From a bacterium (GTDB lineage Bacteria; Myxococcota_A; Bradymonadia; UBA7976; UBA1532): DNA of 64,000 bases. Below are positions 6,390 to 23,832 of the stretch, in pieces (position 1 is the stretch's first letter; each line of letters starts with the position of its first letter). Below the pieces are notes generated by a model, which worked only from the letters and a program-made list of their open reading frames with translations, was not told where the DNA came from and did no database searches. Location of the stretch: assembly GCA_030426085.1 (NCBI GenBank), contig JAUHYW010000021.1, positions 62,001 through 126,000 on the forward strand, given 5' to 3'. The position numbers and the translations under genes are program-made.

Positions 6390-7544
6390 TCACCGGCGAA
6401 ACTCGGGCGCCAGCATCCACCCCAGCTCGGCGTGCTTCAGCGCCCGGCAGAGCTGCTCCAGCGTCTGGCCCCGGGCCGCGGCGGCGGCGGGCAGGTGCCA
6501 TTGATGGCGCGCCAGATGGCGCAGCAGGAACCCGCGCCGGCGCTGGCCCCGCGTCACCCGATAGGTCTTGAGATACTCGACCGTGCCATCGTCCCGCACG
6601 ATGGCTTCGCCGATGTGATGCGCGTCGCCGGGCCCGTCGCTCCGAAAGCCGGTGTCGAACCGCACCAGATCGAGGGGCCCCATGCGATACGCCCGCTCGC
6701 TGACGAGCGGCCGACCCAGGAGCCCGGCGGCCAGCCCCGCCTCGACCCGGGCCCAGGCGGCGCGGGCGTCGGCGAGGGCGACGCCGAGGGTGTTCCAGTC
6801 GGTGACCGCCGCGGCGTCGAGCGTCACCGGCGCGGGCGAGGCGCCGGGGGCGTAGCGGGCGCTCCAGGCGAGCATCGGGCCGTAGAAGTCGTCGACCAGC
6901 GCCCGGTGAAGGCGGCGGTAGTCATCGGGGTGGCTCACCACGGTCGCCGAGGCGAACTGCCCGCCGACGAAGATGAGCACCCCGCACTGGCCTTCGTGGA
7001 TCTCGAAGAGCCGCAGCGCCCCGTCGAGGTCGGGCAGCGCGTAGCCCGGCGTGACCCACTCGGCGCGCGGCGTCAGGCCCCGGCGCAGGACCCGCTGGCT
7101 GTAGTGCTCCCAGGCGATGTCGGGGCCGCCGAAGTAGAGGCTGAGGAAGCCTTCCATCGCGACGTGCAGCGGCAGCAGGCGCAGGCGGCTCTGGGGGCCG
7201 CGCTGCTCGCGCTTGATCATCCGATGGTGCACCTGGAAGAGCCGCGGCGGGTGCTTCGAGCGGCGGGCGCCGCCGTCGAGCATCGTCTCGCCGAGCACGT
7301 CGGCGCCGTCCTTCGTCCAGCCGACGACGAGCCCGTGGGGCACGTAGCCCCCGTATATGGCCTTGTTCGGCGCGCCGGGGCGCCCGCCGGTGTCGACGAG
7401 GGCCAGGGGGCCGTCGGTGCGCCGCAGGCCGAGGCGCAGGTCGCCCCGGGGCGCGCGGCGGATGAGGGGCACGAGGCGCACCCGGCCCCAGACCTGGGCC
7501 ACCTGCGGTTCGAGGCCCTTCAGGCTCAGCGCGTCGAGGCTCAT
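6390..7544 (-). CDS. ARPP-like protein of unknown function, partner of the TROVE-like gene
   Basis: A 384-residue soluble protein beginning MSLDALSLKGLEPQ. Its ATG (7542-7544) overlaps the upstream TGA as ATGA, which fixes the start and implies coupled translation with the TROVE-like protein. The opening pattern (VAQVWGRVRLVPLIRR) and the central FEIHEGQCGVLIFVGGQFAS stretch recall the ARPP-2 group, a domain family I remember as co-occurring with vWA/TROVE proteins in conflict-type gene neighbourhoods; that link is from memory, not a search. No enzyme motif, signal peptide or membrane segment is visible. The C-terminal 60 residues are helical and Arg-rich, compatible with RNA binding. Confidence 0.7.
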   Translation of the reverse strand: MSLDALSLKGLEPQVAQVWGRVRLVPLIRRAPRGDLRLGLRRTDGPLALVDTGGRPGAPNKAIYGGYVPHGLVVGWTKDGADVLGETMLDGGARRSKHPPRLFQVHHRMIKREQRGPQSRLRLLPLHVAMEGFLSLYFGGPDIAWEHYSQRVLRRGLTPRAEWVTPGYALPDLDGALRLFEIHEGQCGVLIFVGGQFASATVVSHPDDYRRLHRALVDDFYGPMLAWSARYAPGASPAPVTLDAAAVTDWNTLGVALADARAAWARVEAGLAAGLLGRPLVSERAYRMGPLDLVRFDTGFRSDGPGDAHHIGEAIVRDDGTVEYLKTYRVTRGQRRRGFLLRHLARHQWHLPAAAAARGQTLEQLCRALKHAELGWMLAPEFRR

Positions 7545-9022
7545 CGGTCGGCTCTCTTCTCTCGCCAGCGGTCGATCATGCGCCGGGCGCGGGCGTCGAG
7601 CCACGCCGTGAAGGCGGCGAGGTCGTCGGCGCCGTCGACGAAGCGGGCCAGCCGCAGGGCGAGGGGCAGATCGTCGGCGGTGCGCACGCCGACGGTGGTG
7701 ATGTGCGGGCCGAGCGCGCGGGGGCTGTAGGTCTCGGGGTCGAAGACGGGGTTGAGGTGGATGACCGGGGCGGTGGCGCCGAGGCGGCTGCGGGCGACGC
7801 GCACGACCTCGTCGGCCGAGCCGGGGCCGACGTTCTCGTAGCCGTCGCTGATGATGAAGACGGCGTCGGGCCGGCCGGCGAGGGCCACGATCAGCGGGCG
7901 GGCGAGGTCGGTCTGGCCGAAGGGGGCGACGCCGAGGGGCACATGATCCTCGGAGAGCGGGGGCGTCGTCCAGTGGGCCGAGTAGCGGTCGCCGTGGCGG
8001 GCGGCGGCGGCGCGCAGGGCCTGCTCGACGGCGAGGCCAACGGCCAGCGGGCGGTCGCGCTTCTCGCGGCTGCCCCGGGTCGAGCGGCTGCGGTCGACGA
8101 CGGCGGCGATCGATCCCAGGCGGGGCAGGCGGGCGGCGATGCGGGCGGCAGCGGCGGCCATCGGGGCGGCGAAGTCGGGGCGCTCCTCGGGCGGGCGGGA
8201 CAGGCCGAAGAGCACGAGCCGGGTCAGATCCATACGGGCGAGATCCAGGCGCTCCAGCTCGGCGCCGGCCGCCCGGGCGCTGGCCTCGATCCGCTCGCGC
8301 TCGCGGCGGGTCATGCGCTGCTCGATGCCTTCGAGGAACTGCTTGCGCTTCATGCCGTGGTGGGCGGCGAGGCCCTCGGCGACGGTCATCGGCAGGTCGA
8401 AGATCTTGCGCTTGTCGTAGTGGGCCTGACGCCAGGTCTCGAGCAGCGGGTTGTCGAACGGCGCCTCACCCCGGCGGTCGGCGGCGGCGCGGTACAGGAT
8501 CCGGCCGATCTCGCCCGGCGGCGCGAGGTGGGTGTGGCGGGTGGCCGCCTTGAGGCCGCTGCGGTACTTGAGCGCGTCGAAGGCCAGATCGCGGCCGGCG
8601 AGCCAGGTGCGCACGGTGGCCCGGGCCCGGCGGTTGTTGATCCGCGAGGCGCGCAGGCGGCGGAAGAGCTTGTAGACCCGGGGCGGGGGCAGCTCGGCGA
8701 GGGCGGCGGCGATGAGCTCGCCCTCGGCGGCGCGGGCGGCGGCGTCATCGGGGGATCCCGCGGCGAGCAGGCCGTGCACGATCATCGCCCGGGAGAAGTC
8801 GTTGAGCCCGGCGGCGAGGCACAGCGCGTAGAGCCGGCGGTGGTTGCCCCGCACGTAGTCGTGCAGGAACGCGATCGAGACCGCCTGCTCGCCGCGCTCG
8901 GCGTAGTACTCGGCCTGCCCGGTGCAGGCGAAGCCCGAGGTGACGAAGGCGGCGATGTCTTCCCGGTCGACGCGGGCCCGGCGGGCGGCGGCGTCTTCGG
9001 CGGGCGCGGGCTGGGGGGTCAT
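7541..9022 (-). CDS. TROVE/Ro60-like protein with C-terminal vWA domain
   Basis: A 493-residue protein. The first 300 residues are a helical-repeat array with many basic residues, as in the TROVE ring of Ro60, which binds misfolded and Y RNAs. The rest is a von Willebrand A domain with a MIDAS start DRSRST near residue 310 and the later IISDGYEN strand. Bacterial Ro60 homologues (Rsr) act with Y RNA and exonucleases in RNA quality control. The start at MTPQPAP is chosen because the 22 upstream in-frame codons are not protein-like; no strong Shine-Dalgarno is seen. It is translationally coupled to the ARPP-like gene. The 125 bases upstream (9023-9147) contain no visible gene but could hold a promoter or a small RNA. 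Confidence 0.8.
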   Translation of the reverse strand: MTPQPAPAEDAAARRARVDREDIAAFVTSGFACTGQAEYYAERGEQAVSIAFLHDYVRGNHRRLYALCLAAGLNDFSRAMIVHGLLAAGSPDDAAARAAEGELIAAALAELPPPRVYKLFRRLRASRINNRRARATVRTWLAGRDLAFDALKYRSGLKAATRHTHLAPPGEIGRILYRAAADRRGEAPFDNPLLETWRQAHYDKRKIFDLPMTVAEGLAAHHGMKRKQFLEGIEQRMTRRERERIEASARAAGAELERLDLARMDLTRLVLFGLSRPPEERPDFAAPMAAAAARIAARLPRLGSIAAVVDRSRSTRGSREKRDRPLAVGLAVEQALRAAAARHGDRYSAHWTTPPLSEDHVPLGVAPFGQTDLARPLIVALAGRPDAVFIISDGYENVGPGSADEVVRVARSRLGATAPVIHLNPVFDPETYSPRALGPHITTVGVRTADDLPLALRLARFVDGADDLAAFTAWLDARARRMIDRWREKRADR

Positions 9023-9147
9023 GGCGGCTCGGGTCGATGGTGTGCGATCGCCGGGGAGATGGGCCGCGATGGAATGGCTCACGTCCAAGGTAAGATTCGG
9101 GAATCGCAGTGGAGCCCCACCGGCGACCGCGGCCCCAGTCTACCGCA

Positions 9148-10905
9148 TCACAGGCCGTACCACAGCTTCAGCGCGGTCACCGCCACCACGCCGCAGGCGA
9201 GCTGCACCGGCACCCCCATCTTGAGGAAGTCGACGAAGCGGTAGCCGCCGGGGCCGTAGACCATCATGTTGGTCTGGTAGCCCAGGGGCGTGGCCAGCGA
9301 GAGCGAGGCCGAGATCGAGGTGGCCAGCACGAACGGGCGGGGGTCGAGGCCGGCGTCTCCGGCCACGGCGAGCGCGATGGGCAGCAGGAGGGCGGCGGCG
9401 GCGGTGTTGGTGATCAGCTCGGTGAGCAGCATGCCGGTGGCGTAGATCAGGGCCAGCAGCAGCACCGGGCCCAGGTCGCCGGCCAGCCCGGTGACGGCGT
9501 GGGCGATGGTGGCGGCGACGCCGGTGTGCTCGACCGCCCGGCCCAGCCCGAGAGCGGCGGCGACGACCACCAGCACCGAGATGTCGATGGCCCGGCGGGC
9601 CGAGCCGAACGTGAGGCAGCCGCCGATCACCGCGATCATCGCCCCGAGCACCGCGGCGCTGGCCAGCGGCATGATCCCGGCGGCGGCCAGCGCGATGACC
9701 CCGCCCATGCACAGCAGCGCCAGCCACGCCCGGCCGTGCCGGGGGCGGGTCGCGTGGGACACCTCGCTGACGAGGTAGAAGTCGGCCGAGTCGCGGAAGG
9801 TGCGGGCGAAGCCGGGGGTGGCCTGCAAGAGCAGCGTGTCGCCGTGGATCAGGCTGATGTCGCCCAGCTTCTGATCGAGCTGCCCCCCGTGGCGGTGCAC
9901 CGCGACGACGGCGGCGTTGTAGGCCCCGCGGAAGTTGGCTTCGCGGATGGAGACCCCGACCAGCGGCGATCCCCGGCTGATCACCGCCTCGTGCAGCACC
10001 CAATCGGTCTCGGAGTCGACCTCGGTCGGGGCCAGCCCCCGCCGCCGCTGCAGCTCGACGATGGTGTCGAGCACCCCGGCGAAGGTCAGCCGGTCGCCCG
10101 CTTCGAGCACCTGGGCCGGGCCCACCGGGGCGATGACGGTCGAGTCCCGCTCGAGGCGCACGAGGAAGAGCCCGGCGAGGTGACGCAGGCCGGCTTCCTC
10201 GACGGTCACCCCGGCCAGCGGCGACTCGGCGGTGATGCGCAGGTCGGTGGTGTACTCCCGGCGCAGCTCGGCGTCGTCCGGCGAGCCCTCGGCGTCCGGG
10301 CTGCGCAGGATGCGGCCGGCCAGCCACCACGTCAGCGGCAGGCCGATCAGGGCCACCGGGATCCCGATCGGAGCCAGTTCGAAGACCCCCAGGCCGGGCA
10401 TGCCCCGGGCGACGAGGGCGCCGTCGACGACGAGGTGGGTCGCGGTGCCGAACAGGGTGCAGGTGCCCCCGAGGACGGCGGCGTAGGACAGCGGCAGCAG
10501 CACCTCCCGGGGCGAGCGGCGGGCGTGGCGGGCCCAGGACGAGGCGATGGGCATCAGCATCGCGACGATGGGGGTGTTGTTGAGGAAGGCGCTCAGCGGG
10601 GTGGTCACCAGCGTCAGCCGGCGGCGGGCCCGGGCGGCGGTGCGCACCCCCGACAGCAGGCGCTCGGCGGGCCGGTCGAGGGCGCCGGTCTCGCGCACCG
10701 CCGCGGTCAGCACGTACAGCCCGCCGAGCGCGATGACCGCCGGGTTGGCGAAGCCGGCAAACGCCGCCGTCGGGTCGAGCACCCCGGTCGCGAGCAGCAC
10801 GGTCAGCCCGCCCATCAGCACCCCTTCGGACGGGTAGCGGTCGGTGACCAGCAGGCCGAAGACGGCGACGACGGTGGCGACGGTGATCCAGGCGTCGAGC
10901 GGCAA
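9148..10905 (-). CDS. SLC13/ArsB-type transporter with two RCK-C (TrkA-C) domains
   Basis: A 585-residue integral inner-membrane protein. Hydrophobic helices at about 1-210 and 410-585 flank two TrkA-C type cytosolic domains at about 225-300 and 310-395. The repeats FLNNTPIVAMLMP and LITNTAAAALLLP are the paired re-entrant signatures of the DASS/SLC13 and ArsB/NhaD superfamily. Members move dicarboxylates, sulfate or other anions with sodium; the substrate cannot be told. The start is a TTG (10905-10903) giving MPLDAWITVATVV, preceded by GGAGGAG with a short spacer; longer in-frame extensions run into the divergent TPR gene and are rejected. It shares a 102-base divergent promoter region with the TPR gene. 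Confidence 0.88.
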   Translation of the reverse strand: MPLDAWITVATVVAVFGLLVTDRYPSEGVLMGGLTVLLATGVLDPTAAFAGFANPAVIALGGLYVLTAAVRETGALDRPAERLLSGVRTAARARRRLTLVTTPLSAFLNNTPIVAMLMPIASSWARHARRSPREVLLPLSYAAVLGGTCTLFGTATHLVVDGALVARGMPGLGVFELAPIGIPVALIGLPLTWWLAGRILRSPDAEGSPDDAELRREYTTDLRITAESPLAGVTVEEAGLRHLAGLFLVRLERDSTVIAPVGPAQVLEAGDRLTFAGVLDTIVELQRRRGLAPTEVDSETDWVLHEAVISRGSPLVGVSIREANFRGAYNAAVVAVHRHGGQLDQKLGDISLIHGDTLLLQATPGFARTFRDSADFYLVSEVSHATRPRHGRAWLALLCMGGVIALAAAGIMPLASAAVLGAMIAVIGGCLTFGSARRAIDISVLVVVAAALGLGRAVEHTGVAATIAHAVTGLAGDLGPVLLLALIYATGMLLTELITNTAAAALLLPIALAVAGDAGLDPRPFVLATSISASLSLATPLGYQTNMMVYGPGGYRFVDFLKMGVPVQLACGVVAVTALKLWYGL

Positions 10906-11872: not shown

Positions 11873-13777
11873 GTGCGTCGCCGGCCGATGCCGCCCCCGT
11901 CAGCTCCACCCGAAGTCCCCTCATCACCCGGCGGCCGGCTGCTCGGGCTCCTGGCGCTGGCGCTGCTGTGCGCCTGCGGTGAGGCCGAGCCGCTCGACGG
12001 GCGGCCGTCGTCGATCCACCCCGCGGGCTTCGCCGACGATCACCGGGCGCCGCTGCGGGCGGCCGGGTGGGATCCCGGGCCGTGTTACGACTGCCACACG
12101 CCCGACGAGGGGCCGGGCGCCTGCCGCGCGTGCCACCCCGACGGGGCCGACGCGTGCGACGTATGCCACGCCGAGCCCGACCCGCCCCACCGGGCGCACC
12201 TCGACTTCGACTGCGTCACCTGCCACCCGGTGCCCGCCGCGCGGGCCACGCCGGGGCACATCGAGGATCGCCCGGAGGACGTGCGCTTCACCGGCCGCGC
12301 CCGGGGATCGGATGGGATCCCGACCTACGCCGAGGGACGCTGCGCCGACACCGCGTGCCACGCCGGGCCGGGCGCTGCCTCCCCCACCCCGGCGTGGGGC
12401 GGCCCGCTGAGCGGGGGGTGCGGCGCGTGCCATGGCATGCCGCCGGCCGATCACCCCCGCGATCGCTGCGATCGATGCCACGGCGCGGTGGTCGACGCCG
12501 ATGGGCGCATCGTCGAGCCGGCGTTGCACCTCGACGGGCGGGTCCAGGCGGTGGACTGGCGGGCCCTGCCCTGCGACGGCTGCCACGGGGACGGATCGGC
12601 CGCCCCGCCGCCGGCGCTCGACGGGCGGAGCGATATCGACGCGCGGGGCGTGGGGGCCCACCGGGCGCACCTCGCGCCGATGACGGGGGCGGCGGTGGCG
12701 TGCGAGACGTGCCACGTCGTGCCCGCCCGCAACGACGCCCCGGGCCACGTCGACGACGACACGCCGGGGGCCGAGGTGATCTTCTCGGGGCGGGCCGGCG
12801 AGGGCGCCCGCTATCGGGGCGGGCAATGCGCCGACACCGCCTGCCACGGGCCCGACCGCCCGAGCTGGACCGGCGACGCGCCCTGCGGGACGTGCCATGG
12901 CGTGCCGCCGGCGGGCCACCCCGCGGGCGACTGCGCCCGGTGCCACGTCGTCGCCGCGCCGGGCGGGGGCTTCGCCGCGCCGGCCGAGCACGTCGACGGG
13001 CGGCTGGACGTGCTCGATCTGGGGCTCGACGACTGCGATCGATGCCATGGGGCGGGCGGCCGGGTGGCCCTCGGTGGATCCCATGGGCCCCATGCCCGAT
13101 ATGACTGCGCCACATGCCACCGCGCGGTGCGGGTGATCGCGGCCCACCTGGACGGTGATCCGGCCGTCGACCGCCCGGGCTGGAGCGCCGGCACCTGCGC
13201 CGATGATAGCTGCCACGGCGACGGGCGGCCGGAATGGGGCGTGCCCGACTCGGTCTCCGGGTGCGACGCGTGCCACGGCCAGCCGCCGCCCGATCACAGC
13301 GTCGGCGACTGCCTCGACTGCCACCCGCCCGCCGACGACCCGCGCCACGTCGACGGGCGGGTCGACGTCACCCTGCCCGACGGCTGCGAGAGCTGCCACG
13401 GCCAGCCCGACTCGGGCGCCCACCGGGCCCACGCCGCGCCGGGCTCGACCGCCGGGGCCGACTGCGCCGACTGCCACCCGGTGCCCGAGACGGTCGACAC
13501 GCCGGGCCACCTGGGGCCGCCGCCGGCCGACGTCGTCCTGCGGGCCGGGGTCTACGCCGAGGGGCGCTGCGCCGATACGACGTGCCACGCCGGGCCCGGC
13601 GCCGCCCGGCCCGCGCCGCTGTGGATCGATGGGCGGGTGCGCTGCGGCGACTGCCACGCCATCCCCCCGCCGGGGCACCTGATCGGGCCGTGTGATCAGT
13701 GTCATTCGGCGGTGGCCGAGGGCTACGAGATCCACGACCCCGCGCGCCACGCCGACGGCCGGGTGGACTTCCGATGA
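11873..13777 (+). CDS. Multihaem c-type cytochrome lipoprotein with 18 CxxCH and 4 CX4CH motifs
   Basis: A 634-residue exported protein. A short hydrophobic signal ends LLALALLCAC, a likely lipobox. It carries 18 CxxCH motifs plus four CX4CH motifs (CADTACH twice, CADDSCH, CADTTCH). The CX4CH motifs open a repeating module that continues with CGxCHGxPPxxH and CxxCH, the pattern of the CxxxxCH/CxxCH cytochromes of metal-reducing deltaproteobacteria. It is the first of five overlapping genes and probably sits on the outer membrane as an electron relay. The start is uncertain: GTG 11873 gives an Arg-rich n-region, ATG 11888 is the alternative, and neither has a clear Shine-Dalgarno. Whether the CX4CH sites bind haem is not settled by sequence. 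Confidence 0.85.
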   Translation: MRRRPMPPPSAPPEVPSSPGGRLLGLLALALLCACGEAEPLDGRPSSIHPAGFADDHRAPLRAAGWDPGPCYDCHTPDEGPGACRACHPDGADACDVCHAEPDPPHRAHLDFDCVTCHPVPAARATPGHIEDRPEDVRFTGRARGSDGIPTYAEGRCADTACHAGPGAASPTPAWGGPLSGGCGACHGMPPADHPRDRCDRCHGAVVDADGRIVEPALHLDGRVQAVDWRALPCDGCHGDGSAAPPPALDGRSDIDARGVGAHRAHLAPMTGAAVACETCHVVPARNDAPGHVDDDTPGAEVIFSGRAGEGARYRGGQCADTACHGPDRPSWTGDAPCGTCHGVPPAGHPAGDCARCHVVAAPGGGFAAPAEHVDGRLDVLDLGLDDCDRCHGAGGRVALGGSHGPHARYDCATCHRAVRVIAAHLDGDPAVDRPGWSAGTCADDSCHGDGRPEWGVPDSVSGCDACHGQPPPDHSVGDCLDCHPPADDPRHVDGRVDVTLPDGCESCHGQPDSGAHRAHAAPGSTAGADCADCHPVPETVDTPGHLGPPPADVVLRAGVYAEGRCADTTCHAGPGAARPAPLWIDGRVRCGDCHAIPPPGHLIGPCDQCHSAVAEGYEIHDPARHADGRVDFR

Positions 13778-15009
13778 TCGCCCGCCTCACCCTCGTATTG
13801 GGGCTGCTCGCGGCCCCGGCCGGCGCCCGGCCGGTCGATCCCGATCCCCCGCCCCGGATCTCGGCCCGCAGCAGCATCGTCATGCGGCTCGACCCCCGCG
13901 CGCCCCAGGATCCGCGGGGCACGGTGGGCATCGGGCTCTTCCGGGTGCTGGCCCGGGACGGCTACGACGCCGAGGTGTCGGGCTGGATCGGGCACGCGCC
14001 ACACGCGCCGGGGCGGGACGACGCGGTGGTCTCGGGCGACGTGAGCACGCTGCGGGTCCGGGCGCCGCTGGGGCCGGCGTGGGTCGAGGCCGGCCGCCAC
14101 TGGACGCGGATCGGCGGGCAGCGGCTGACCGGGCTCGACGGGATCACCGCCGGGCTCGCGGTGGGTGACCGGCTCGACGTCGCGCTGCGGGCCGGCCTGG
14201 GGCTGCCGCTGGCAGGCGACGCGTTCGGCTCGGCGATCGAGGCCGGGGGCGAGGCCCGCATGCGCTTCGACGGCGGCTTCGCCACGCTCGGGGTGGTGAG
14301 CGCCCACGCCGACGACACGCCCGATCGCACCCGGTGGACGGCGTCCGGGGGCTACGCGGCGGGCGACCTCTTCAACGCCCGGGGCGCGGTGACCGCCGAC
14401 GTGATCGAGCGGGCCGTGGTCGACGCCCGGCTCGAGCTGGCGGCCCACCCGGTCGAGGCGCTGCGCCTGCGGGGCTACGGGCGCTACGCCCGGATCGAGG
14501 CGCTGCTGCCGCCCGGCGATCTGCTCGCCGCGTTCGCGCCCGATCCCCGGGGCGAGCTGGGCGCGCTGGCCGAGTGGTCGCCCGATGCCCGCTGGCGGCT
14601 GCGGCTGGACGGGGCCTGGGCCGGCGTGCGCGCGGCCGATTACGGCGCCCGCTGGCGGGCCGGCGTGGAGTGGCTGCCCCGGCCGGGCGTGTGGGCCACG
14701 GTCGAAGGGACCGCCCGCGTCGAGCGCCACGGGCGCAGCGGCATGCTGCGGGTGGCTGGGCGCTGGCCGGTGCGGGGCACGCTGTTCGCCACGGTCGAGG
14801 CGCTGGGCGACCTCGAGATCCCGAGCGGCGAGGCGGCCCGCCCCGGCGGCGTCGGCCGGCTGGGGCTGGGCTTCGAGCCATGGGACGGCTGGCTGATGTA
14901 CGGGGCGCTGGAGGGCGCCCGCACGCCCCGCTGGCCGGAGCGGCTGGGCGGGGTCGTGGTGGTCGAGTACGCGCTGGGGGCCCCGGTCCGCTGGGGAGGT
15001 GGGCCGTGA
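13774..15009 (+). CDS. Outer-membrane beta-barrel of the cytochrome conduit
   Basis: A 411-residue protein with a signal peptide (MIARLTLVLGLLAAPAGA) and then alternating polar/hydrophobic strands rich in Gly, Arg, aromatic and Ala residues (RLRLDGAWAGVRAADYGARW, VWATVEGTARV, LFATVEALGDLEI). It ends in a strand-like VVVVEYALGAPVRW. It has no cysteine-haem motif. The ATG overlaps the previous stop as ATGA, and the stop overlaps the next gene as GTGA. By context it plays the part of MtrB/OmbB-type porins, which sheathe a cytochrome across the outer membrane; the family assignment rests on composition and neighbours, not on a recognised motif. Confidence 0.7.
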   Translation: MIARLTLVLGLLAAPAGARPVDPDPPPRISARSSIVMRLDPRAPQDPRGTVGIGLFRVLARDGYDAEVSGWIGHAPHAPGRDDAVVSGDVSTLRVRAPLGPAWVEAGRHWTRIGGQRLTGLDGITAGLAVGDRLDVALRAGLGLPLAGDAFGSAIEAGGEARMRFDGGFATLGVVSAHADDTPDRTRWTASGGYAAGDLFNARGAVTADVIERAVVDARLELAAHPVEALRLRGYGRYARIEALLPPGDLLAAFAPDPRGELGALAEWSPDARWRLRLDGAWAGVRAADYGARWRAGVEWLPRPGVWATVEGTARVERHGRSGMLRVAGRWPVRGTLFATVEALGDLEIPSGEAARPGGVGRLGLGFEPWDGWLMYGALEGARTPRWPERLGGVVVVEYALGAPVRWGGGP

Positions 15010-16040
15010 CGCGGGGTGGGATCGCGCTCGGGCTCGTGGCCCTGGCGGTCGCCGGCTGCACGGGCGACGTGAAGGCCCCGGCCGAGGCCACGGTGAGCCA
15101 CGTGGCCCACGCCCGGGCCGGGGTGCATTGCAGCCGATGCCACGCGGGCATCACCGAGGCGTCGACGGCCGCCGGGACCCACCTACCGGGCGACGACGCC
15201 TGCGCCGCGTGCCACGCCGAGGCCCACCCGGGGCAGGCGGACCGGGTATGCACCGGGTGCCACATCGACCCCGATATCACCGCGACGCTCGACGCGATGG
15301 GGGCCGCGCTCGTCTTCGATCACCGGGGGCACCTCGATCGCATGAAGGCCGACTGCGTCGCCTGCCACCGGGGCACCGTCGACCCGGGGCACGGCACCAT
15401 CCCGGCGATGAGCGACTGCGCCGGCTGCCACGACGACTGGCTCCAGGGGCTCGACTGCAAGCGATGCCACGTATCGCTGGTGGCGTATCCCATCGAGCCC
15501 ATCAGCCACCAGGCGCACGCGGCGGACTTCGCCCGGCGCCACGGCCTGGAGGCCATGGCCGGCGGCGACCGCTGCGCGCAGTGTCACGGGCAGTCGTTCT
15601 GCGCCGAGTGTCATGACGGGCGGATCCCGCTGACCGCCGCCGATCGCTGGCCCGATCGGCCCGACCGGGGCTTCATCCACCGGCCGGGCTACCTCGAGCG
15701 CCACGCGTTCGAGGCCCGCCTCGAGGGGCCCACCTGCGTCGGCTGCCACGGCGTCGAGCAGTGCCGGGCGTGCCACGCCGACGCCGGCCGCGGGCCGGGG
15801 GGCCTGTCCCCTCACCCGCCGGGCTGGGCCTCGCCCGGGGCCGGGCCCAACCGCCACGCCGACGCCGCCCGCCGCGATCTGCTCGACTGCGCGAGCTGCC
15901 ACAGCGGGGCCGGCGCGGAGATCTGCGTGACCTGCCACGCGGTCGGTCGGCCCGGCGGATCGCCCCACGGCGGGCGACGGCCGGCGGGCGACCCCCGGCG
16001 GGATCGCCCGTGCACCCCCTGCCACGGAGGCCCCCGATGA
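15006..16040 (+). CDS. 13-haem c-type cytochrome lipoprotein
   Basis: A 344-residue protein starting at a GTG that overlaps the barrel stop (GTGA). The signal ends VALAVAGC, a good lipobox, so it is predicted to be lipid-anchored. Thirteen CxxCH motifs follow, from CSRCH near residue 40 to CTPCH five residues before the end, with extra His residues (SHVAH, FDHRGH, ISHQAH) suited as distal ligands. By its place directly after the barrel gene it is the best candidate for the cytochrome inserted in, or docked to, the barrel, as MtrA or OmaB are; it has more haems than the ten of MtrA. Overlaps the next gene by ATGA. Confidence 0.85.
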   Translation: MTRGGIALGLVALAVAGCTGDVKAPAEATVSHVAHARAGVHCSRCHAGITEASTAAGTHLPGDDACAACHAEAHPGQADRVCTGCHIDPDITATLDAMGAALVFDHRGHLDRMKADCVACHRGTVDPGHGTIPAMSDCAGCHDDWLQGLDCKRCHVSLVAYPIEPISHQAHAADFARRHGLEAMAGGDRCAQCHGQSFCAECHDGRIPLTAADRWPDRPDRGFIHRPGYLERHAFEARLEGPTCVGCHGVEQCRACHADAGRGPGGLSPHPPGWASPGAGPNRHADAARRDLLDCASCHSGAGAEICVTCHAVGRPGGSPHGGRRPAGDPRRDRPCTPCHGGPR

Positions 16041-17986
16041 GCCCCCGGGCCCACCGCATCGTACGCCGGCTGCTGCTCGCCGGGGGGATCGCCCTGGCCG
16101 TGGGCCTCGTGCCGGCCATCATGACCTGGGACTACATCCAGAACGACCCCGACTTCTGCACCTCGTGCCACATCATGGACGACGCCTACGAGCGGTGGGC
16201 GGACAGCCCGCACGCCCAGGTGAACTGCCACACCTGCCACCCGGGCGATCTGGCGAGCAACCTGCACCAGCTCTGGGTGCAACTCACCGACCGGCCGACC
16301 GAGGTGGAGAAGCACGCGGTGGTGCCGGCGGACATCTGCGGGCAATGCCACCTCGGCGAAGACAGCCGGTGGCCGGTCGTGGGGCAGACCGCGGGGCACG
16401 CGCTGCACTACGGCGAGCACGAGATCGAGTGCGTCGAGTGCCACGCGCCCGCGATCCACGAGTTCATCCCCACCGACCAGATGTGCCAGAAGTGCCACCC
16501 CAGCGAGGTCGTGGGGCTGAGCGCGATGCAGCGCTTGCACTGCGGGAGCTGCCACGCCTTCCTCGCCGCGCCCGAGCGGGGCATCGTGCCCGACGACGCC
16601 CGCTGCGCCGAGTGCCACGGGGCCGACGGCAGCGCGCCGCGGGCCTCGGCGTGGCACCCCGATCTGGACTGCGCCGGCTGCCACCCGGTGCATGATGATC
16701 CGGCCTCGGTCGCCGCCGATCCGGGCGTCGAGCACCGCCGGGGGCGGGCCCTGCCGTGCACCGGCTGCCACGCCGACGCCGCCGCGCTCGACATGCCGCC
16801 GGGCCACGGCTGCGCCGACTGCCACGAGCCCCACGGGGGCGGCTTCGAAGAGGCGGTCTGCCGCGACTGCCACCGGCCGGTCGCCGCGCAGCAGCCGCCC
16901 CGGGATCACCACGCCTGCGCCGACTGCCACCCGCCGCACGCCCCCGACGTGAGGCCCGCCGACCGCTGCGCCGACTGCCACCGGGGCGACGAGGTCCTGG
17001 CCGCGGGCACCCCGGTCGAGGCCCACCGGGCGTGCGAGAGCTGCCACCAGCCGCACGAGGCGGGCCCGCCGGATGGGCCGGCCTGCGCCCCGTGCCATAC
17101 GAAGCAGAGCCGGCAGGCGGCGGTGGCCGGCGTCGAGGCCCACCGGCAGTGCGCCGGCTGCCACGCGGTGCACGCCCCGGCGTCGGTGCGAGCCTGCGGG
17201 GGCTGCCACCCCGATCAGCGACAGGCCACCGCCGAGGCGCCCCGGGCGCACCGCAACTGCGCGACGTGCCATCCGCTGCACGGCAGCCCCCGGTCGGGCG
17301 TGGGCCCGTGCCGGGGGTGCCACGTCGAGCAGGCCCGCGCCGCCGATCGCCAGCCGCCGGAGCACGGCCGCTGCGCCGACTGCCACCCGCCCCACCGACC
17401 GACGCGGCCCACCGAGGCGGTCTGCGCCGAGTGCCACGCCGGCCAGCGCGCGGCCGTCGCCGCCGAGCCGCCGGCCCACCAGCGCTGCGGGACCTGCCAC
17501 GCGTGGCACGCCCCCGGCTTGCGGGCCGACGACGGCACCTGCGCCGGGTGCCATGCGGCGCAGGCGGCCGGGCGACCCGGGGCGCCCTTCGGCGAGATCC
17601 ATCAAGGCTGCGGCGGGTGCCACCCGGGGCATGGGACCCGGGCGGCTCATGACTGCGCCGGGTGCCATGTGCCCGCCGCCCGGGCCGTCTCGGGCGCGAT
17701 CCCGGCTCACAGCGACTGCGAGAGCTGCCATGGCTCGACCCATCAACCACAGGCGGGCGACCGGCGGGCGTGCGTCGACTGCCACGGTGATCCCACCGGC
17801 GTCGGCCTGCACCGCCTCGACGCCCACCGGGCGTGCGTCGACTGCCACGGCGGGCACCGCCCGCAGATCCCCGGGGCCGCCGCCTGCACCGGCTGCCACC
17901 CCCCCGAGAAGATCCAGCGACATCCGGCCGCCGCGCGGGGGGCGCAGAGCTGCCATGGATGTCACTCGTTCCGGAGGAACCGATGA
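16037..17986 (+). CDS. 30-haem NapC/NirT-like membrane-anchored cytochrome with tandem dihaem repeats
   Basis: A 649-residue protein with 30 CxxCH motifs. Residues 1-40 are an Arg-rich start and one membrane anchor ([17 protein letters not shown]) followed by [18 protein letters not shown] and NCHTCHPG, the NapC/NirT/CymA quinol-dehydrogenase pattern; its tetrahaem head covers roughly the first 140 residues. Six more haems link this to a long tail (about 256-635) of ten dihaem repeats of 36-40 residues, each AHRxCxxCHxxH then CxxCH. NapC-type heads take electrons from quinol in the inner membrane; the tail could carry them across the periplasm. Start and stop overlap both neighbours by ATGA. 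The family normally has 4 haems and about 200 residues, so this is a large extension. Confidence 0.85.
16802..17940 (+). repeat. Ten tandem dihaem repeats inside the 30-haem cytochrome
   Basis: Each unit encodes about 36-40 residues with two CxxCH motifs. The first is framed by His on both sides (for example [39 protein letters not shown]); the second lies about 10-15 residues later and is usually followed by a Gln/Ala/Arg-rich linker. The units are diverged at the DNA level, so the array is old rather than a recent slippage product. Confidence 0.8.
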
Positions 17987-20145
17987 GAGACCGATACTCG
18001 ATGGGCGCGATCGCGCTCGCGTGCTGCGCGGCGTTGCTCGCGTGCGAGGGCCCCGCGGGGCCGATGGGCGCGACGGGGGACGCCGGCCCGGCCGGGCCCC
18101 AGGGCGATCCGGGGCCCGCCGGTGAGGCGGGGCCCCAGGGCGAGGAGGGCCCCCAGGGGGATCCCGGCGAGCGGGGCCCCGAGGGCGCCCCCGGGGAGGA
18201 CGGCGACGAGGGTGAGCAGGGCCCGGCCGGCGAGGAGGGGCCCCAGGGCGAGGCGGGCCCCGAGGGTCCGGCCGGTCCGCCCGGTGAGGACGGCGAAGAC
18301 GGCCGGGACGGGTCGGACGGACGCAGCGGCTTCTACACCGATCCCGATCTGGTGGTCACCCCGACCGCCGTCGGGCTCGACGGCATGGGCCACGCCACGG
18401 TGGTCTTCACCCTGAGCGACGGCGTCGGGCGCCCGCTCGACGTGGATGGGCTGTTCACCCGGGGCCCGGTGGATCTGGCGTTCACCCTGGCCGCGGCCAC
18501 CGAGGACGGTTGGCACAGCTACATCGTGCGCGAGGCGGCCGCGGGGGACGTCGTGGTCGAGCAGGCCACGTCCGAGAGCGACGGCGCGCTCGAGATGCTG
18601 GCGTTCGGCGAGTACGCCTACACCTACGAGACCGCGGCCCCCGACGACGCGTCGCTCGACGCGGTGCACCGGGTCTCGATCGGCGCCCGCCGCACGCAGG
18701 ACGACGGCTTCCGGGTCGGTCACTCGGCCTCGCTCGACTTCGTGCCCACCGACGACGGCCCGCCGATCGTGCCCGACGACGCCCTCACCGATCGCTGCAA
18801 CCAGTGCCATCAAGGCATCGAGGGCCACGGCGGCCGGTGGACCGGGCTCGACGCCTGCGTCACCTGCCACACCCGGCAGACGACCGACCCCGAGAGCGGC
18901 AACACGGTGCAGATGGCGGTGATGCTGCACAAGATCCACCAGGGCGCGGGGCTGCCCAGCGTGCAGGCCGGCGAGCCGTATCGCATCATCGGCTATCGAG
19001 GCTCGGTGCACGACTACTCGGACGTGCACCTGCCCCGGCCGGCGAGCGACTGCCAGGCGTGCCACGGGCCCGATGCCGTGGCGTGGCCCGGGGCGACCGA
19101 CTCCGCCTGCGCCGCCTGCCACGACCGGACCGCTTTCTTCGCGCCGACCCCGCCGGGCTACGTGGCCCACCCGGGCGGCGTGCGCCCGCCGGACGACGCC
19201 AACTGCGTGGTGTGCCACCCCAAGAGCGGGGGGCTGTCGGGGGTCGCCGACGTGCACCGCGCGCCGACGCTCGACCCCGCGCTGGGGCGGGTCGGCCTGC
19301 GCTTCGTCATCGACGGGGTCGAGGGCGCGGCCCCCGGCGCGGCGCCCACGGTGCGCTTCCGGGTGCTCGACGACGCCGATGATCCGGTGGCGCTCGACGC
19401 CCTCGACAGCCTCGAGATCACCCTCGCCGGGCCCACCGGCGGGATCACATGGAGCCACACCACCCGCGACGTGCACCTGTCGGCCGAGGTCGACGGCGCG
19501 GGGCATGTCATCGAGCTGGATGGCATGGTGCCGGCCGACGCGACCGGCTCGGTGGCGGTGGGCATGGCCGGCTATCGCTACCTGCCCTATGGCGCCGAGC
19601 GGGCGGCCTCCATCGGGCGGGAGAACGGGGGCAACCCGGTGGTCTACGCCGCGCTGGACGACGGCCCGGCCGATCCGGTGCCCCAGGCCACCAGCGACGC
19701 CCGGTGCGACGCGTGCCACGGCGACGTCGCGGCCCACGGCACCTTCCGCACCGCGCTGCCCTACTGCCAGCTCTGCCACCACCGCGAGGCCACCGACGCC
19801 GCCCGCCGCCCGCCGGAGGCCGGGCCCCCGGCCAGCGTCGACCTGGGGCCGATGGTGCACCGCATCCACGCCGGGGCGACGCTGGCCACGCCGGTCGTGT
19901 ACTACGGCTTCGGCAATACGGCCCATGACTTCGGCGAGGTGCACTACCCCGGCGATCTGGCCCGGTGCGACGGCTGCCACACCGGCGATCGCTGGACCCG
20001 CCCCTCCACCGCGGCCTGCGTGAGCTGCCACGACGCGGACGCCGCCCGGGCCCACGCCGCGCTCGAGACGAGCGCCGAGGGCGTCGAGGCGTGCGCCGTC
20101 TGCCATGGCCCCGATCGGGAGTACGCCGTCGAGGCGGTGCACTGA
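17983..20145 (+). CDS. OmcA/MtrC-type decahaem lipoprotein with collagen-like stalk
   Basis: A 720-residue protein whose ATG overlaps the previous stop (ATGA). The signal ends AALLAC, with the lipidated Cys at residue 21. Residues 23-115 are 31 unbroken Gly-X-Y triplets rich in Glu, Asp, Pro and Gln. Then come a beta-rich domain (about 117-265), five CxxCH motifs (about 271-415), a second beta domain (about 425-570) and five more CxxCH motifs to residue 715. This beta-pentahaem-beta-pentahaem order is that of OmcA/MtrC cell-surface metal reductases. The collagen-like part would form a rod lifting the decahaem head off the outer membrane. It is the last gene of the operon and the most likely terminal reductase. 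Confidence 0.9.
18049..18327 (+). repeat. Collagen-like Gly-X-Y coding repeat (31 triplets)
   Basis: The stretch encodes 31 uninterrupted G-X-Y triplets directly after the lipobox cysteine, dominated by GPA, GPQ, GED, GEE and GDP. The charged X and Y positions fit bacterial collagens, which form stable triple helices without hydroxyproline. The implied trimer would bring three decahaem heads together. Confidence 0.9.
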
Positions 20146-20221: not shown

Positions 20222-22126
20222 TTGATCGATCTGCTGATCGTCCTGGGCTTCGTCGTCTACGCCGTGGGCTCGGGGCTCGCGGCTCGCAAGGACGCGTCGC
20301 AGGGACCCGAGGAGTACTTCCTGGCCGGGCGCTCGATGCCCGGGTGGAAGGCCGGGCTGTCGATGACGGCCACCCAATACGCGGCCGATACGCCGCTGGT
20401 GGTCACCGGCATGATCGCCACCGCGGGCGTCTTCGCGCTGTGGCGCTTCTGGGTCTACAGCCTGGCGTTCTTGCTGATGGGCTTCCTGCTCGCGCCGGCC
20501 TGGCGCCGCTCGGCGATACTGACCGACGCCGAGCTGTGCGAGAAGCGCTACACCGGCCGGGCGGCCGAGGTGCTGCGCTACGTCAAGGCGTTCTACTTCG
20601 GCACCCTCTTCAACTGCATCGTGCTGGCCTTCGTGCTGCTGGCGGCGACCCGCATCACCGAGCCCTTCCTGCCATGGCACGAGTGGCTGCCCGGCGGCGC
20701 CCTCTCGCCGCTGGCCTCGGTCGTCGAGTGGGTCGGCAAGCCGCTGACGGCGGTCGGCCTCGACGCACCCGATGTCTGGACCCGCTCGGCGGCCAACCTG
20801 CTCTCGATCCTGGTCATCGTGGGCTTCACCGCGCTGTATTCGACCACCGGCGGGCTGCGATCGGTGATGAACACCGACGCGGTGCAGGTGATCCTGGCCT
20901 TCATCGCGACCGGCATCTACGCCTGGGTCATCGTGAAGGCCGTCGGCGGGCTCGACGGGCTGCCCGAGCGGCTGTCGGCGCTGTACGGCGAGACCCGCAT
21001 GCAGGAGATGCTGAGCTTCTCACCGATAGAAGGCGCCGACGCGGCGGCGACGGTGCTGGGGCTGCTCGGCATCCAATGGTTCGCCCAGCTCAACAGCGAC
21101 GGCACCGGCTACCTGGCCCAGCGATCGATGGCCTGCCGATCGGACCGGGACGCCCGGGTCGCGGCGGTGATCTTCACCTACGCCCAGAGCGTGCTGCGCA
21201 CGCTGCTGTGGCTGCCGATCGTCGTGGGGCTGATGATCCTGTACCCCGCCGACACCGCGGTGACGTCCGAGGCGGCGACCGCGGCCCGGGAGGGCATCTT
21301 CGTGATCGGCGTGGCCGAGCACCTGCCGACGGGCGCCCTGGGGCTGATGCTGGTGGGCCTGCTCGCGGCGCTGGCGTCGACGGTCGACACCCACCTCAAC
21401 TGGGGGTCGAGCTATTGGACGAATGACTTCTACGACCGCCTGTGGTGCCAGCGCATCAAGCAACAGCCGGCCGACAAGCGCACGCTGGTGCGGGTGGCCC
21501 GGCTGGCGAACATCCTCATCCTGGTGCTGGCGCTGGGGGTGATGACCCAGCTCGGATCGATCCAGACAGCGTGGAAGACGAGCCTGCTCTTCGGGGCCGG
21601 CATGGGGGTGCCGCTGCTGCTGCGCTGGCTGTGGCATCGGCAGAACGCGTGGGGCGAGCTGGTGCCCATCGCGGCGTCGCTGGTGATCGCCCCGCTGCTC
21701 TTGTGGCTGCTGCCGGGGGACGAGCACGACGCGCTGCGGCTCATCCTGATGACCGCCATCGCCACCGTGGGATCGGTCGCCGCCTCGCTGCTGACCCCGG
21801 CGGTGCCGGCCGAGCGGCTGGACGCGTTCTTCGTCAAGGTCCGCCCGCCCGGCTTCTGGGGCCCGGTCGCCCGCCGCTGCGGGCGGGATCCGGCGGACGG
21901 TCGGCGGGCGTTCGGCCGGGGCATGGCGGCGACCTTCGCCGCGGCGGGCAGCGTCTTCGCGATGATCGTCGGCGGCGGGACGTGGATCCTCAGCGCGCCG
22001 GCGCCCTTCGGCCTGAGCTCGGGGCTGTGGGCCGGTCTCTGTCTGGTGGTCGCCGTCGGGCTCATCCCGGTCTGGTATCGGCTGGGCCGGGGCGAAGACG
22101 AGCCGGCGCAGGAGGCGGCCGGCTGA
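20222..22126 (+). CDS. Sodium:solute symporter family protein
   Basis: A 634-residue inner-membrane protein of the SSS family (SLC5-like) with about 13 hydrophobic helices. Recognisable are the N-terminal EEYFLAGRSMPGW segment, the ALYSTTGGLRSVMNTDAVQ signature and STVDTHLNWGSSYWTNDFY. Members couple sodium import to uptake of sugars, organic acids, amino acids or vitamins; the substrate is not evident. TTG 20222 is preferred because GGAGGTGA (20212-20219) lies just upstream, whereas the in-frame GTG at 20216 falls inside it. The stop overlaps the GH15 start (TGATG), so the two are translationally coupled. It lies 76 bases after the haem operon, perhaps in the same transcript. Confidence 0.9.
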   Translation: MIDLLIVLGFVVYAVGSGLAARKDASQGPEEYFLAGRSMPGWKAGLSMTATQYAADTPLVVTGMIATAGVFALWRFWVYSLAFLLMGFLLAPAWRRSAILTDAELCEKRYTGRAAEVLRYVKAFYFGTLFNCIVLAFVLLAATRITEPFLPWHEWLPGGALSPLASVVEWVGKPLTAVGLDAPDVWTRSAANLLSILVIVGFTALYSTTGGLRSVMNTDAVQVILAFIATGIYAWVIVKAVGGLDGLPERLSALYGETRMQEMLSFSPIEGADAAATVLGLLGIQWFAQLNSDGTGYLAQRSMACRSDRDARVAAVIFTYAQSVLRTLLWLPIVVGLMILYPADTAVTSEAATAAREGIFVIGVAEHLPTGALGLMLVGLLAALASTVDTHLNWGSSYWTNDFYDRLWCQRIKQQPADKRTLVRVARLANILILVLALGVMTQLGSIQTAWKTSLLFGAGMGVPLLLRWLWHRQNAWGELVPIAASLVIAPLLLWLLPGDEHDALRLILMTAIATVGSVAASLLTPAVPAERLDAFFVKVRPPGFWGPVARRCGRDPADGRRAFGRGMAATFAAAGSVFAMIVGGGTWILSAPAPFGLSSGLWAGLCLVVAVGLIPVWYRLGRGEDEPAQEAAG

Positions 22127-23832
22127 TGACCGAGGCGGGGTTGGATCACGGGCTGGTGAGCAACGGCCGGGTGCTGGCGCTGATCGGGCCCGACGGCGGG
22201 GTGGCGTGGTCCTGCGCGCCGCGGTTCGACAGCCCGGCGCTCTTCTGCGGGCTGCTCGATCCGGCGCGGGGCGGGCGCTTCGTGATCGAGGTCGAGGGGC
22301 AGACCGAGGTCCGTCAGGCGTACCACCGGGACAGCCTCGCGCTGCGCACCACGCTCGTCGGGCGGGCGGGCGCGGTGGCCGTGGACGACGTGTGCCCGCT
22401 CGACGACAGCCCCCGGCTCATCCGGTGGGTGTCGGTGATCGAGGGCGCGCCCCGGGTGCGGGTGATCTTCGATCCCCGGCCGGACTACGGGCGGAGCCCG
22501 ACGCGAGCGAAGCCCTCGGGCGATGGCTGGCTCGTCGGCGACGTCGCGCTGCGGATCGAGGGCGATGGCGTCGACGTCGAGGCGGTCACCAGCGGCGGCT
22601 GGTGGCGGCTGGATCGCCCGCTGGGGCTGGTGCTCGATCGGCGGCCGGCGTCGACGGTGGGGCTGCCGGCCGCAGTGGCCGTCGAGCACGCGAACCGGAC
22701 GTGGCGCGGCTGGCTCGACGGGCTGTCGGTGGGGTCGGATCCCATCGCCCGTCGCTCGGCGCTGACGCTGGCGGCGCTGGTCTATCGGCCGACGGGGGCG
22801 ATGATCGCCGCCGCGACGACCTCGGTGCCCGAAGCCATCGGCGAGCCGCGCAACTGGGACTATCGCTATTGCTGGGTCCGCGACGGCGCCTTCGCCGCCG
22901 AAGCTCTGCTGCGCCTGGGTGATCGGGCGGCGGCGCGCGCGCTCCTGACCTTCCTGTGGCGGGCCATCGGTGACGGGCCGGTCCAGCCGCTGTATCGGGT
23001 CGACGGTGATCGCTCCATCCCCGAAGAGACCCTGCCCCATCTGGCCGGCTTCGCCGACACCGGCCCGGTGCGCATCGGCAACGCGGCGGCGGGGCAGATC
23101 CAGCACGATACGCACGGGCAGATCGTGTGGCTGGCCGAGCGCATCGTGGCGGCCGGCGGCGCCCTCGATCGGGCGATGCTGCCCTGGCTGTGGGCCCGGG
23201 TCGAGGCGGCGGCGGCGGTGCGGGGCGTGCCCGACGCCGGGATCTGGGAGTTCCGCGATCGGCCGGGGCAGTACACCTTCAGCCACCTGTGGTGCTGGGT
23301 CGCGCTCGATCGGGGGGCGAAGCTGGCGGCGGCGGTGGGCGAGGCCAAGCGAGCCGGCATGTGGGCCGCGATCGCCGCCGCCCAGCGGGAGGCGATGCTG
23401 GCGGCGGCCACCTCGGCCGGCTTCTTCGCCCAGACGCTCGATGGGACCGACGTGGACGCCAGCAGCCTCGCGGTGGCCCCGATGGGGCTGGTCGATCCGG
23501 CCGATCCCCGCTATCGGGCGACGATCGACCGCTGCGAAGCGGCGCTGCTGGTCGACGGCCTGATGAAGCGCTACGTGGCCCGGGACGACTTCGGCGCGAC
23601 GACGAGCACCTTCAGCCTGTGCACGCTGTGGTGGATCGAGGCGCTGGCCGCGAGCGGGCAGACCCAGCGGGCTCGGGATGCCTTCTCGGACTTCCTGAGC
23701 CATGGCAACCCGCACGGGCTCTTCTCGGAAGACATCGATCCGAAGACCGGCCGCCTGCTGGGCAACTTCCCCCAGGCGTACACCCACATCGGCATCCTGA
23801 ATGTCATGCACGCGCTGGGATCGCCGGGGTGA
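22126..23832 (+). CDS. Glycoside hydrolase family 15 protein
   Basis: A 568-residue cytosolic enzyme of the GH15 glucoamylase/trehalase group. The N-terminal beta-rich half (about 1-200) precedes an (alpha/alpha)6 barrel carrying the hallmark EPRNWDYRYCWVRD near residues 245-258, GQIQHDTHGQ and the GIWEFRD element expected to supply the catalytic general acid. GH15 enzymes hydrolyse alpha-glucosidic bonds; some bacterial and archaeal members of this soluble subgroup are trehalases. No signal peptide is seen, so the substrate is presumably intracellular. Coupling to the symporter through TGATG suggests they act on the same sugar, but this is inference. Confidence 0.9.
   Translation: MTEAGLDHGLVSNGRVLALIGPDGGVAWSCAPRFDSPALFCGLLDPARGGRFVIEVEGQTEVRQAYHRDSLALRTTLVGRAGAVAVDDVCPLDDSPRLIRWVSVIEGAPRVRVIFDPRPDYGRSPTRAKPSGDGWLVGDVALRIEGDGVDVEAVTSGGWWRLDRPLGLVLDRRPASTVGLPAAVAVEHANRTWRGWLDGLSVGSDPIARRSALTLAALVYRPTGAMIAAATTSVPEAIGEPRNWDYRYCWVRDGAFAAEALLRLGDRAAARALLTFLWRAIGDGPVQPLYRVDGDRSIPEETLPHLAGFADTGPVRIGNAAAGQIQHDTHGQIVWLAERIVAAGGALDRAMLPWLWARVEAAAAVRGVPDAGIWEFRDRPGQYTFSHLWCWVALDRGAKLAAAVGEAKRAGMWAAIAAAQREAMLAAATSAGFFAQTLDGTDVDASSLAVAPMGLVDPADPRYRATIDRCEAALLVDGLMKRYVARDDFGATTSTFSLCTLWWIEALAASGQTQRARDAFSDFLSHGNPHGLFSEDIDPKTGRLLGNFPQAYTHIGILNVMHALGSPG

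Follow-up and report, generated by a model that had tools for sequence, protein, structure and literature searches.

The subject of this analysis is a 64,000-nucleotide stretch (the window) of contig JAUHYW010000021.1 (assembly GCA_030426085.1) from a bacterium of the Bradymonadia, and in particular an operon of five co-directional genes, here called A to E, located on its forward strand at positions 11873–20145. It is highly probable (roughly 0.8) that this operon encodes a trans-envelope porin–cytochrome conduit in which electrons flow outward from D to C, lodged in the barrel B, and from there to A, with E as an accessory component. The reading stands on gene architecture, the predicted fold of the barrel, E's place in the OmcA/MtrC family, the NrfH-like module of D, ligand conservation and co-conservation of the genes, all of them computed; haem attachment, complex formation, the reach of D to the outer membrane, the outward flow and the acceptor are what we infer.

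In the proposed mechanism, D would be anchored in the inner membrane and would oxidise menaquinol at its NrfH-like site; through its ~26 extra bis-histidine haems the electrons would cross the periplasm and reach C. This 13-haem protein, a wire lodged within the B barrel, would take them through the outer membrane and hand them to A, a 22-haem surface lipoprotein. E would be a second, accessory surface decahaem reductase, carried on a collagen-like stalk and widening the contact with extracellular acceptors; the terminal acceptors might be minerals, humics or other cells.

Operon architecture

The five genes encode proteins of 634 (A), 411 (B), 344 (C), 649 (D) and 720 (E) amino acids (aa), and adjoining pairs share 4 bases (ATGA or GTGA) at all junctions. 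The haem motifs per gene are 22 (18 CxxCH plus 4 CX4CH), 0, 13, 30 and 10, with a sum of 75; these counts are not due to chance, since shuffled versions of each protein yield a mean of at most 0.57 CxxCH and a maximum of 5. An earlier sequence-only reading had reported the same five genes, overlaps and motif counts, which were exact on recheck. Its frames and positions were exact as well, and only the start of gene A is uncertain (GTG 11873 or ATG 11888). It had not recorded the lipoboxes on A, C and E, the collagen-like repeat in E or the NrfH-type CTSCHIM haem-1 motif in D. In the cytochromes all cysteines outside the signal peptides belong to haem motifs, and B is cysteine-free. The lipoboxes are LCAC in A, VAGC in C and LLAC in E, D having an N-terminal transmembrane helix instead. 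The operon is flanked by a tetratricopeptide repeat (TPR) protein 151 or 166 bases upstream (according to the start of A that is chosen) and by a sodium:solute symporter 70 bases downstream, and the cytochrome unit therefore appears to consist of exactly these five genes.

A predicted barrel and a 13-haem cytochrome in the core of the proposed conduit

Gene B (13774–15009) encodes the predicted outer-membrane β-barrel. Its structure prediction shows 22 strands with fair confidence (predicted local distance difference test, pLDDT, 76; predicted template modelling score, pTM, 0.70), and only outer-membrane barrels are found among the 50 Foldseek matches listed. The barrel proposed by the sequence-only reading is thus retained as a predicted fold, and a non-barrel structure did not emerge. 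In sequence, B has no Pfam, NCBIfam or PDB match. The adjoining gene C (15006–16040) encodes a 13-haem lipoprotein whose probable lipidated residue is Cys18 in the VAGC lipobox (15057–15059), a lipobox-like cysteine being found in most of its homologues. By its motifs and alignment, C is a putative haem wire that would be inserted in the B barrel. All 13 haem histidines and 10 further histidines are invariant in 20 sequences of C across the phylum; likewise, in 6 homologues of D, all 30 haem histidines are invariant together with 28 other histidines outside CxxCH, which are likely distal ligands. Because these extra histidines are invariant, nearly every haem in C and D has an invariant candidate distal ligand. 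The filing of C as MtrA and of B as MtrB was considered and rejected: C has no match to TIGR03508 (MtrA/DmsE, a 10-haem family), its profile aligns with MtrA (6r2q_A) over ~100 positions only (E = 3e-6), and B has no sequence match to MtrB and does not have it among its 50 Foldseek matches listed.

Conservation of the parts across the phylum

The surroundings of gene C homologues across the phylum were fetched and their genes called with our own script; the calls in relatives are approximate, and many relatives are contigs of metagenome-assembled genomes (MAGs) that end within the locus. A maximum-likelihood tree of the C homologues separates two clades with 100/100 support. The type-1 clade comprises 58 loci, that of the window among them; in 55 of these a homologous barrel lies directly upstream of C, so that the adjacency of a predicted outer-membrane β-barrel gene and a multihaem cytochrome gene, by which porin–cytochrome systems are recognised, is kept in nearly all of them. 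Of the 58 loci, 50 also have an A-like CX4CH cytochrome nearby, 28 have a D-like protein (19 or more haems) and 11 have an E-like one; the full set of parts is held by 10 type-1 loci from several families. Some of the loci served to build the barrel profile; in the 35 type-1 loci outside that set (L101–L135) the barrel is again directly upstream of C in 33. Additionally, profile comparison over ~300 columns relates the barrels upstream of C in distant groups to one another (E between 3.5e-7 and 1.1e-12), with E values of 0.15 or worse in a reversed control for composition artefacts. In the relative L049 all four junctions have the 4-base overlap, as do most junctions in other relatives. Co-conservation, whose absence would have counted against the sequence-only reading, is thus what the phylum displays.

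The type-2 sister clade has 18 loci, 15 of them with the barrel upstream of C; A-, D- and E-like genes are found in none, and no other cytochrome of at least 4 haems occurs near C. Since A and B track C far more often than D and E do, A-B-C is considered a recurring core, with D and E as added modules, and the two-clade pattern separates this conduit core from its optional modules. The same loci could be read as separate cytochromes that are merely clustered, with A-B-C forming a conduit, D working on its own in the periplasm as a reductase or electron store and E being an unrelated surface protein. Many loci indeed lack D or E or have it in divergent orientation, and D-like proteins devoid of the NrfH module exist as lipoproteins or differently anchored proteins. 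On the other hand, D- and E-like genes recur beside type-1 C and never beside type-2 C, translational coupling links the five genes both in the window and in L049, and no substrate-converting domain can be recognised in D or E, which makes such clustering an unlikely explanation.

Some observations weigh against a five-gene conduit and have to be set beside this pattern. Many loci with A-B-C lack D and E, and the five-gene path is therefore not obligatory. The structure model of C alone is poor (pLDDT 59), and MtrB is not among the 50 Foldseek matches listed for B. Finally, the barrel gene is present in 8 of the 13 genomes of the window's family and absent from the same-genus genome G001, so the operon is a lineage-variable trait.

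Probable surface cytochromes A and E

Gene A (11873–13777, or from 11888) encodes the 22-haem lipoprotein, with a probable lipidated Cys35 (11975–11977) in its LCAC lipobox; its sole cysteines outside the haem motifs are Cys33 and Cys35, both in the signal peptide. The first CX4CH motif (CADTACH) is located at 12341–12361 and the others at 12827–12847, 13196–13216 and 13568–13588. A matches TIGR01904, the CxxxxCH/CxxCH domain known from Geobacter, with 60 bits in four stretches. A survey of porin–cytochrome (Pcc) systems found atypical motifs of the CX4CH type in outer-membrane and not in periplasmic cytochromes (PMC4245776), and A is placed outside for this reason. By this analogy, A is likely the outer-membrane or extracellular cytochrome of the core conduit, in an arrangement where A would face the outside and C the inside. 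Enlarged A-like cytochromes of 1150–1300 aa, with 28–34 CxxCH and 2–8 CX4CH motifs, are encoded beside the barrel in other loci (L058:4038–7961 and L067:3969–7424).

Gene E (17983–20145) encodes a predicted decahaem surface lipoprotein of the OmcA/MtrC family. With its 10 CxxCH motifs it scores 306.5 bits against TIGR03507 (curated cut-off 209.3) and it matches the OmcA structure 4lmh. Its N-terminus carries a collagen-like Gly-X-Y stalk (18046–18330; PF01391, E = 6e-15). In MtrC a CX8C disulfide controls flavin use (PMC9973256); E has no CX8C pair, as it has no cysteine beyond the haem motifs and the signal peptide, although TIGR03507 does not require one. The sequence-only reading had proposed E as the head of the conduit; its assignment to the OmcA/MtrC family was correct, but it is A that tracks the barrel across the phylum, and E as a general head on the barrel was rejected on the counts given above (11 against 50 of the 58 loci). 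Many relatives (among them L047:1685–3850, L051:2467–4665 and L054:3117–5285) encode, just upstream of A or B, an extra 8-haem lipoprotein of ~720 aa whose N-terminus is collagen-like. It is not part of the present operon, and a partial match occurs elsewhere in the same genome (G000:C61:32112–33164).

Gene D, an NrfH-like module with a putative long haem wire

Gene D (16037–17986) encodes an inner-membrane-anchored 30-haem cytochrome that, by motifs and profiles, consists of an NrfH-like module followed by ~26 haems. The transmembrane anchor and the NrfH-like first haems occupy 16067–16252, and residues 11–72 match chain 2j7a_C of NrfH (E = 9.9e-6), a structurally solved quinol dehydrogenase. 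The haem-1 motif, CTSCHIM (16157–16177), is of the NrfH type; together with the N-terminal transmembrane helix it gives D the features that distinguish NapC/NirT/NrfH proteins (such a helix and a CxxCHxM first haem), and the motif is invariant in the 6 homologues. The match to TIGR03153 (NrfH) reaches 40.4 bits (E = 2.8e-10), under the curated cut-off of 134.2, and that to PF03264 (NapC) 20.8 bits, under the curated cut-off of 24.1; because of these scores the region is called an NrfH-like module and not NrfH. The 28 invariant non-motif histidines plus the methionine of CTSCHIM are enough ligands for nearly every haem.

In the window's family, D proteins start with the NrfH-like module (E between 5.7e-8 and 4.1e-11), two distant D-like proteins of 33–34 haems (L128 and L132) give weaker matches to it, and other D-like proteins (22–27 haems; lipoproteins or differently anchored) give none. 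The simplest reading of this modularity would be that a periplasmic wire gained a quinol dehydrogenase head. Stacked cytochromes elsewhere extend by ~6–8 Å per haem, and at this spacing the 30 haems of D would reach 180–240 Å, near the width of the Gram-negative periplasm, which D may thus bridge. More tentatively, at somewhat under even odds, a single D chain would oxidise menaquinol, span the periplasm with its ~26 stacked haems and dock directly on the barrel, so that the five genes would form a self-sufficient, shuttle-free circuit from quinol to the surface, evolved in Myxococcota through the fusion of an NrfH module to an older periplasmic wire. In several distant families (L064:5161–6363, L123, L128, L129) a separate 9-haem protein of 400–447 aa is encoded directly before a D-like gene of 32–34 haems.

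Direction of electron flow and host genome

The path from the quinone pool to the cell surface suggested by the sequence-only reading could be real, in view of the predicted barrel, the co-conservation, the NrfH/NapC-like N-terminus of D and the above-cut-off score of E, but with A as its general outer end and E added where present. Outward flow is favoured because E relates to OmcA/MtrC, a family known from metal reducers, and D to NrfH, a quinol dehydrogenase. For the same reasons an inward conduit, in which D would act as a quinone reductase fed with electrons from Fe(II), a partner cell or reduced humics, is rather improbable, even though the related mto/pio and PCC3 systems have been proposed to run inward, CymA-type proteins have been reported as bidirectional (PMC5566968, PMC6295460) and the two haem-copper oxidases of this genome could serve as electron sink. 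A role at the envelope in redox stress, metal detoxification or haem/iron storage, and not in respiration, is very improbable: the predicted barrel and the NrfH-like module imply a quinone-pool route across the outer membrane, and nothing specific speaks for such a role, except that proteins with very dense haems can serve as electron capacitors.

The genome of the window (10.1 Mb, 95% complete) encodes cytochrome-assembly proteins (three PF01578 matches) and two COX1 proteins (haem-copper oxidases); it can therefore probably mature c-type haems, and the host is probably a facultative aerobe. The closest named records that hold the operon are uncultured Myxococcota/Myxococcales MAGs, and a contig profile search with a narrower gene C alignment returned matches in same-family MAGs only. 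Within the window, a GH15-type glucoamylase/trehalase-like gene (22126–23832) overlaps the downstream symporter and is probably unrelated to the operon. The same genome harbors a second, two-gene candidate conduit (L083, G000:C20:121500–140000, positions 7126–9677), in which a barrel of 463 aa is paired with a 13-haem cytochrome (388 aa) belonging to the sister clade. It lies beside a PilY1/PilX/minor-pilin cluster, a neighbourhood with similar counterparts in several related genomes (also L072, L074, L079 and L081), hinting, as far as gene order can tell, at a porin–cytochrome pair linked with type IV pili. A term search of the main text of a 2026 survey of myxobacterial PilY1 clusters found TfcP as the only cytochrome (PMC13190605).

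Comparison with known systems

D shares its transmembrane anchor and its CTSCHIM first haem with NrfH, NapC and CymA, which carry ~4–5 haems compared with 30 in the single D chain. MtrB has ~26 strands, whereas 22 are predicted for B, and no relation between the two was detected. With MtrCAB/cymA clusters the operon has in common a member of the OmcA/MtrC family (E) and, by analogy, a protein that may function like CymA/NrfH (D); it differs from them in that C is not recognised by the MtrA/DmsE model and E is devoid of the CX8C switch of MtrC. The sequence-only reading knew of no operon joining a NapC-like wire, a barrel and an OmcA/MtrC head; this view is contradicted by the mtrCAB clusters with cymA reported from nearly every group (PMC8805035) and by Rhodoferax ferrireducens, where two cymA genes and mtrABC lie in one cluster (PMC6295460).

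The OmbB-OmaB-OmcB, Ext and OetABI systems of Geobacter and syntrophic sulfate reducers share the trimodular plan of a periplasmic cytochrome, a porin and an extracellular lipoprotein cytochrome. The likeness is one of plan; OmaB/OmcB have 8 + 12 haems against 13 + 22 in C and A. Anaeromyxobacter, for its part, belongs to the Myxococcota. As in A, the surface component of the Geobacter and syntroph conduits carries CX3-15CH motifs (PMC4245776, PMC10553843). In the Group IV Pcc of Anaeromyxobacter (Shi et al., 2014) a porin-like protein is encoded beside a periplasmic cytochrome of 338–344 aa with 12–14 haems (PMC4245776); compared by description only, the B-C pair is alike in size, haem count, pairing and phylum. 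Unlike the present operon, these are described as two-gene clusters devoid of surface or inner-membrane cytochromes (PMC4245776). Judged by size, haem number and gene order, B-C is probably an extension of this group.

The PCC3 clusters of neutrophilic iron oxidisers (He et al., 2017; PMC5566968) likewise combine a porin with an inner-membrane protein and with extracellular and periplasmic cytochromes of very large size. Their haems number 34 + 21 in the median and as many as 85 in a single protein (PMC5566968), which overturns the claim that haems are far fewer in known systems; a periplasm-spanning wire has already been proposed for them (PMC5566968). However, they are mostly from Proteobacteria, and their inner-membrane protein is a five-helix b-type candidate and not an NrfH-type module fused to a wire. 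This five-helix protein, with its two WX3HX13H motifs, is not among the five genes, whose neighbours are the TPR protein and the symporter, and the filing of the operon as PCC3 was rejected on this ground. Searches of open-access papers for myxococcal porin–cytochrome clusters and for NapC-fused or periplasm-spanning wires turned up no account of the operon, nor of any wire of this length fused to a NapC/NrfH module, although such a negative says little about true absence. Quinol-to-surface wires as a kind are known, whereas the present version and its Myxococcota-wide conservation appear undescribed. Two things look new: a quinol dehydrogenase covalently fused to a ~26-haem wire, and how broadly the porin–cytochrome family is spread in Myxococcota. 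Members of this phylum are best known as aerobic predators, and a conserved porin–cytochrome family in many of their families suggests widespread extracellular respiration. To the question of how electrons cross the periplasm in extracellular electron transfer, gene D would supply a testable answer in a single protein.

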